Shown here one piece after another: positions 20,059 through 20,305 of a stretch of 64,000 nt of DNA. The DNA comes from Polaribacter sp. (GTDB lineage: Bacteria > Bacteroidota > Bacteroidia > Flavobacteriales > Flavobacteriaceae): contig DYMN01000003.1 of the NCBI GenBank assembly GCA_020740485.1, positions 1-64,000 on the forward strand, read 5' to 3'. Positions within the stretch are counted from its first letter, which is position 1. Every line of letters starts with the position of its first letter. The notes beneath the pieces are model-generated. The model ran no database searches and was not told where the DNA came from. It saw nothing but the letters and a program-made list of their open reading frames with translations. A program made the translations under genes and the position numbers.

Positions 20059-20144
20059 GAAGGTAAAAGGTACGCTTCGACTGCGCTCAGCGACCAAAAG
20101 GTTAAAGGGAAAAGCAGAAAGTATTAAATTAACATTAAATAATA

Positions 20145-20255
20145 GTCTCTTAGAGACGTAATGTCGGTAGTAGAAAATTAACATTCAATAAAAGTCTCGT
20201 AGAGGCGTAAGTCGGGGACATTAAAACAAAAATTCGATAAAAGTCCCGTAGGGAC
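20145..20255. repeat. Three palindromic repeat units at 49-bp period between actD and actE
   Basis: GTCTC-TTA-GAGAC (20145-20157), GTCTC-GTA-GAGGC (20194-20206), GTCCC-GTA-GGGAC (20243-20255), each followed by CGTAAtGTCGG-like sequence. Confidence 0.85.
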
Positions 20256-20305
20256 GTAATGTCGGTAGAACGAATTGTCGGTAAAAACAATTTATATTTT
20301 TTAAA

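Follow-up and report, generated by a model that had tools for sequence, protein, structure and literature searches.

TnpA-Y1 transposases of subclass 1.2 have been listed without REP elements and generally without the typical terminal structures of IS200 (Quentin et al., 2018, PMC6006769), which leaves their substrate and their role open. They are characterized by the motifs DH[IV]H, W and Y---Q--HH, by low copy number and by a distribution in Bacteroidetes. The REP/RAYT systems (REPtrons) of the GTAG super-family consist of short dispersed intergenic palindromes, which occur singly, as inverted pairs or in clusters, flank a Y1 transposase gene and show stem changes that preserve pairing (Di Nocera et al., 2013, PMC3733652). 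Their enzyme is a class 2 RAYT, their GTAG lies 0–2 nt 5' of the hairpin foot (rule in PMC6006769), head-to-tail dimers are rare, and a high genome copy number is one criterion of the super-family. In the IS200/IS605 elements, hairpins lie near the ends, and near-identical multiple IS copies with a single subterminal hairpin per end are one criterion for them. The Acido-Lenti-1 RNA (Rfam RF01687) is described as a small RNA family, and its smaller hairpin resembles the opposite-strand reading of the unit described below.

The window is the whole stretch of DNA analysed here, 64,000 nucleotides from a Polaribacter assembly (G000; 2.18 Mb, 84.6% complete). Three hairpins are located on its forward strand between the genes called actD and actE after the initial annotation and the operon order. 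The start-to-start spacing read directly from the sequence is 49 and 49 bp, and repeat finding on the window gave one family of three copies of 49 nt. The initial annotation had placed three palindromic units at 20145, 20194 and 20243 with an exact 49-bp period, and its sequences and coordinates were found to be correct. Unit 1 (20145–20157) is GTCTC-TTA-GAGAC, with a folding energy of −3.0 kcal/mol as an isolated DNA hairpin. Unit 2 (20194–20206) is GTCTC-GTA-GAGGC, and is weak as DNA. Unit 3 (20243–20255) is GTCCC-GTA-GGGAC, the commonest stem of the family, with −4.0 kcal/mol as DNA. As had also been noted, unit 3 shows a paired T-A to C-G change relative to unit 1 (stem pair 4), and a single A to G change in unit 2 leaves a G-T(U) pair (stem pair 2).

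Each unit of the window is composed of the 13-nt hairpin, the tail GTAATGTCGGTAG and an AT-rich spacer. A similar tail had been described after every unit; it is intact (CGTAATGTCGG) 3' of units 1 and 3, whereas that of unit 2 is decayed by a 1-nt deletion (CGTAAGTCGGGG). The tail of unit 1 (20158–20172) is GTAATGTCGGTAGTA, compared with the family consensus NNAATRTYKGTAGAA, and the tail of unit 3 (20256–20270, GTAATGTCGGTAGAA) matches the consensus exactly. In the decayed tail of unit 2 (20207–20219, GTAAGTCGGGGAC), GTAG is lost. Unit 3 fits the family pattern exactly, unit 1 differs by one tail change and the loop TTA, and unit 2 is decayed. A tail-only remnant without a hairpin (AATTGTCGGTA) lies 3' of unit 3 at about 20273–20283. 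The leader ahead of unit 1 (20120–20144) resembles the spacers at 20173–20193 and 20222–20242 (AT-rich, ATTAACATTNAATAA). When up to three mismatches are allowed, the 64-kb window contains three matches to the core pattern, with 0.13 expected by chance.

The actD–actE gap that contains the array (20059–20305) is 247 bp in the window, whereas it is 34–38 bp in the congeners G001–G003. Among the other relatives with a readable gap, most have 10–40 bp. According to the comparison with the three congeners, the array is a lineage-specific insertion. As the short junctions of the congeners have diverged, the exact boundaries of the insertion could not be set.

The repeat family extends beyond this site. 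A genome search for further copies, proposed in the initial annotation, gave a second array in the same assembly as well as copies in congeners. The second array (C20:108262–108340, minus strand) has two units at a spacing of 50 bp, and lies between two co-directional genes that look nuo-like by eye. The assembly thus holds five copies in total, a low copy number. The congeners G002 and G003 hold copies with the tail ATATCTGTAG or near it, and the G002 copies are inverted pairs. Two G002 loci (L025 and L026) have a MITE-like composite, in which inverted pairs of GTCCCGTAGGGAC(G/T)A(A/T)ATATCTGTAG flank a long palindrome (CGCCGACCGTTGCAGC...GCTGCAACGGTCGGCG or a sequence close to it). Using the strict pattern, no match was found outside the genus in 300 sampled genomes of the family. 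The wider repeat family was reached by scanning contigs of 84,980 species, and at least 119 stretches were obtained from Bacteroidales, Cytophagales, Flavobacteriales, Planctomycetota, Brocadiaceae, Poribacteria, KSB1 and Acidobacteria. Rfam was searched with the window and with 13 loci of the family, and no hit reached the threshold. A search of the open-access literature by the repeat letters found no paper on the repeat among the 30 of 248 matches listed.

The family element is a 5-bp hairpin with a 3–4-nt loop (GTA or GTTA), followed by 2 nt and then AATRTYKGTAGAA. The initial annotation took covariation as a sign of a retained hairpin. The three copies of the window alone are insufficient for this; the covariation was established using 192 distinct elements picked by the tail alone. 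When a loop of 3 or 4 nt was allowed, 150 of the 192 had fully paired 5-bp stems of 20 types, including GTCCC/GGGAC, GTTCC/GGAAC, GCCCC/GGGGC, ATCCC/GGGAT, GAGCC/GGCTC and GTCGC/GCGAC. In the fixed register of a 3-nt loop, 95 stems were fully paired, exceeding both the mean (56) and the maximum (67) of 500 shuffles, which leave the relatedness between the sequences in place. A looser element set agreed with this result. The number of stem types across phyla is hard to explain without real covariation.

The same-strand spacing of family copies peaks at 49–53 bp, and the pitch of the window array (49 and 49 bp) falls within this peak. In 65 distinct arrays, the agreement between spacers is little above chance, and the agreement between hairpins and tails is strong. 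As the spacers of neighbouring units are mostly unrelated, the ~50-bp pitch is not only the trace of recent tandem duplication. The frequent layouts are the single copy, the convergent pair, ++- and ++--. Among dispersed copies within one genome, conservation begins within a few nt of the outermost hairpin and continues inward through the tail.

Y1_Tnp genes were found in 13 of the 15 genomes searched, and several of them are flanked by hairpin-tail elements, either on one side or on both. Two motifs are present in the flanked genes, [DN]H[ILV]H and Y---Q--HH, and together they are the signature of TnpA-Y1 subclass 1.2. In order to limit circularity, the linkage was examined using three tests. 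The contigs selected by the repeat alone (119 stretches among the matches listed, 816 kb) hold seven subclass 1.2 genes, six of which lie 0–93 bp from an element. At roughly 0.3–0.4 genes per Mb, as estimated from the class sample, fewer than one is expected in 816 kb. When genes were selected class-wide by protein similarity alone, hairpin direct repeats at 44–58 bp were present within 600 bp in 12 of 26 cases, against none of 21 controls, from which L216 was left out because it carries the window array itself. About half of this class-wide sample has no array according to the detector used. Hairpin-tail copies that flank the gene in inverted orientation, with at least 21/28 identity, were observed at 17 of 45 loci, against 0 of 26 flank pairings across genomes. 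These 45 loci include genomes chosen for holding the repeat, so that the comparison of arrays with controls is the cleaner one; the class-wide subset alone gives 5 of 26.

At the genes, the hairpin-tail units point inward from both sides ([+ + ... tnpA ... - -]), and the ++-- composites would correspond to this layout minus the gene. The genes at related arrays score 68–87 bits with the NCBIfam IS200/IS605 model (cut-off 55). With the NCBIfam REP transposase model, the flanked genes stay below the cut-off of 80, at 30–43 bits or with no match at all. In the four loci examined, no elements closely flank classical RAYT genes (YIH.NP type). The window array itself has no such transposase gene beside it.

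In the congener G003 (L155), an intact subclass 1.2 gene of 154 aa is preceded by eight units at a 49-bp pitch, seven of GTCCCGTAGGGAC and one degenerate, and inverted units lie downstream. The tail at this gene (TCTCTCTAGG) differs from the tail of the window (GTCGGTAG). The only Y1 gene found in the window's own genome (C28:137755–138364, L156) has the subclass 1.2 motif and one internal stop. It is flanked by a different palindrome, CCACGCCC-TTTA-GGGCGTGG, which forms a 49-bp pair on one flank and is present in two copies on the opposite flank, and this palindrome or close variants are located at about 24 places genome-wide. No intact cognate transposase gene for the window array was found in the 84.6% complete assembly. 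Since the only Y1 gene found has a stop and a different flanking hairpin, the window array is probably a relic.

From these comparisons of sequences, we are fairly confident that the window array consists of REP-like elements clustered in tandem, in which a hairpin and the tail NNAATRTYKGTAG recur every ~50 bp, and that the family is the probable single-stranded DNA substrate of subclass 1.2 Y1 (HUH) transposases (Y---Q--HH). Family membership, covariation, the ~50-bp pitch, the linkage of arrays and genes with inward tails, and the lineage-specific insertion are established. The initial annotation had suggested a mobile REP-like family, and these features together with the dispersed copies support it and narrow it down. 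Using the biochemistry of IS608 and TnpA-REP (PMC8266576) as the model, the HUH enzyme would bind the hairpin where the DNA is single-stranded, such as at replication forks, nick near the conserved GTAG-containing tail, and transfer the strand. Units moved or copied in this manner would spread through intergenic DNA as single copies, tandem arrays and inverted pairs. The presence of the array in the operon is most likely near-neutral. As the system appears to work like a REP system, "REP-like element of subclass 1.2 Y1 transposases" is the best name. The arrays offer a concrete candidate substrate for these enzymes, and provide an explanation for an intergenic repeat that is very widespread in Bacteroidota and other phyla.

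The flanked genes agree with the published subclass 1.2 in motifs, low copy number and occurrence in Bacteroidetes. They differ from it in that hairpin arrays accompany about half of the genes in the class-wide sample, and in that copies are also found in Planctomycetota and other phyla. The elements resemble the GTAG super-family in being short, dispersed, intergenic palindromes with pairing-preserving changes beside a Y1 gene, present singly, as inverted pairs or in clusters. However, their GTAG lies 3' of the hairpin foot, 9 nt away, ~50-bp direct repeats are common, the enzyme belongs to subclass 1.2, and the copy number in the assembly is low. By definition, they fall outside the GTAG REPs, which have GTAG on the other side of the hairpin, outside the RAYT REPtrons, whose enzyme is of another class, and outside Acido-Lenti-1, for which the window scores below the gathering threshold. 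The IS200/IS605 elements share the transposase model and the hairpins near the ends, but here the ends are formed by inverted arrays with one hairpin or several, the genes are single-copy and divergent, and no typical IS arrangement is observed. Three other assignments were rejected. CGTC-tagged REPs have 8–9-bp stems and CCA tails. An intrinsic terminator is excluded as there is no GC hairpin with a T run on the transcribed strand, terminator-like sites being present on the opposite strand only. The 49-nt unit as a minimal IS608-like circle, with the left cut ~20 nt before the hairpin, does not agree with the conservation of dispersed copies, which fades within a few nt ahead of the outermost hairpin.

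The initial annotation had also offered an mRNA processing or stability element, in which a fold of the transcript at the actD–actE junction would tune stability or processing between the cistrons. The array is co-directional with the operon, the second array of the genome also lies between co-directional genes, G-T(U) pairs are present in the stems, and the stretch folds as RNA better than shuffles (z = −2.44). The moderate excess of family copies 3' of a co-directional gene (126 of 198) leaves some room for this explanation. However, the coding strand has no T(U) run, the 5-bp stems are weak with unit 2 nearly unfolded as DNA, and the minimum-energy RNA fold pairs the neighbouring units 1 and 2 instead of forming separate hairpins. 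At the same junction, neither the three congeners nor other relatives have the array, and the hairpins are concentrated beside transposase genes. The conserved tail and this linkage would need another reason. No positive support for the mRNA element was found, nothing in the data requires an RNA role, and we regard this explanation as unlikely.

The innermost hairpin is often located directly before the start codon of tnpA (L076, L108, L155 and L095), which could allow autoregulation. Such sites could be read as operators of a transposase autoregulator, with the dispersed copies as stray operators and not mobile units, and cooperative binding would fit the fixed pitch. The inverted copies downstream of the gene, the many dispersed copies and the inverted composites without a gene fit mobilized REPs better, and the operator explanation is very improbable. 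A simple tandem duplication at this site, starting from a palindrome that arose by chance and has no wider meaning, would leave spacers alike between units, as they are in the window. It is contradicted already by the copies elsewhere. The same hairpin and tail occur in many phyla, the stems covary, the arrays share a pitch although their spacers are unrelated, and they are linked to transposase genes, so that this explanation can practically be dismissed.

A wider reading may also be considered, to which we give somewhat less than an even chance. In this reading, the subclass 1.2 HUH enzymes are not REP-less, but form a REP system distinct from RAYT REPs and IS200/IS605, with fixed-pitch (~50 bp) arrays of hairpins and GTAG tails with free spacers in several phyla; and Acido-Lenti-1 would, in some genomes at least, be one of the DNA elements of this system rather than an RNA gene. 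A fixed ~50-bp pitch with unrelated spacers is undescribed for REPs in the open-access literature searched, and asks for a structural reason. Acido-Lenti-1 is abundant in several genomes that carry the repeat, and flanks a subclass 1.2 gene in two places. It differs in having a second hairpin of 8 bp, and the window scores 14.3 bits, against a gathering threshold of 37, over positions 28–45 only.

About 70–157 Acido-Lenti-1 matches per genome were observed in G310, G306, G307 and G308, of which G310, G307 and G306 are Brocadiaceae, Acidobacteria and Planctomycetales records, respectively. The matches often pair up on opposite strands at a distance of about 149 bp, as at G310:C29:8704(-) and 8853(+), and they adjoin a subclass 1.2 transposase gene in G309:C4 and G306:C11. 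In these genomes the matches look like mobile DNA repeats, which suggests that the Rfam family may partly represent a DNA repeat.

The inserted stretch between actD and actE also contains one copy of another dispersed repeat, CTTCGACTNCGCTCAG (20075–20090, forward strand, CTTCGACTGCGCTCAG). The pattern CTTCGACT(G/T/A/C)CGCTCAG was located at 32 places of the window's own genome among the matches listed (at most one mismatch), and the copies are often 49–51 or 25 bp apart. In addition to the window site, copies are present at C10:32094 and 32143, C10:25471 and 25522, C35:64340, 64365 and 64415, and C2:43104 and 43129. At C10:25182–25537 (L265), which includes a stretch of N in the assembly, copies of CTTCGACTTCGCTCAG enclose a run of short repeats of the CAATAGCAT type.
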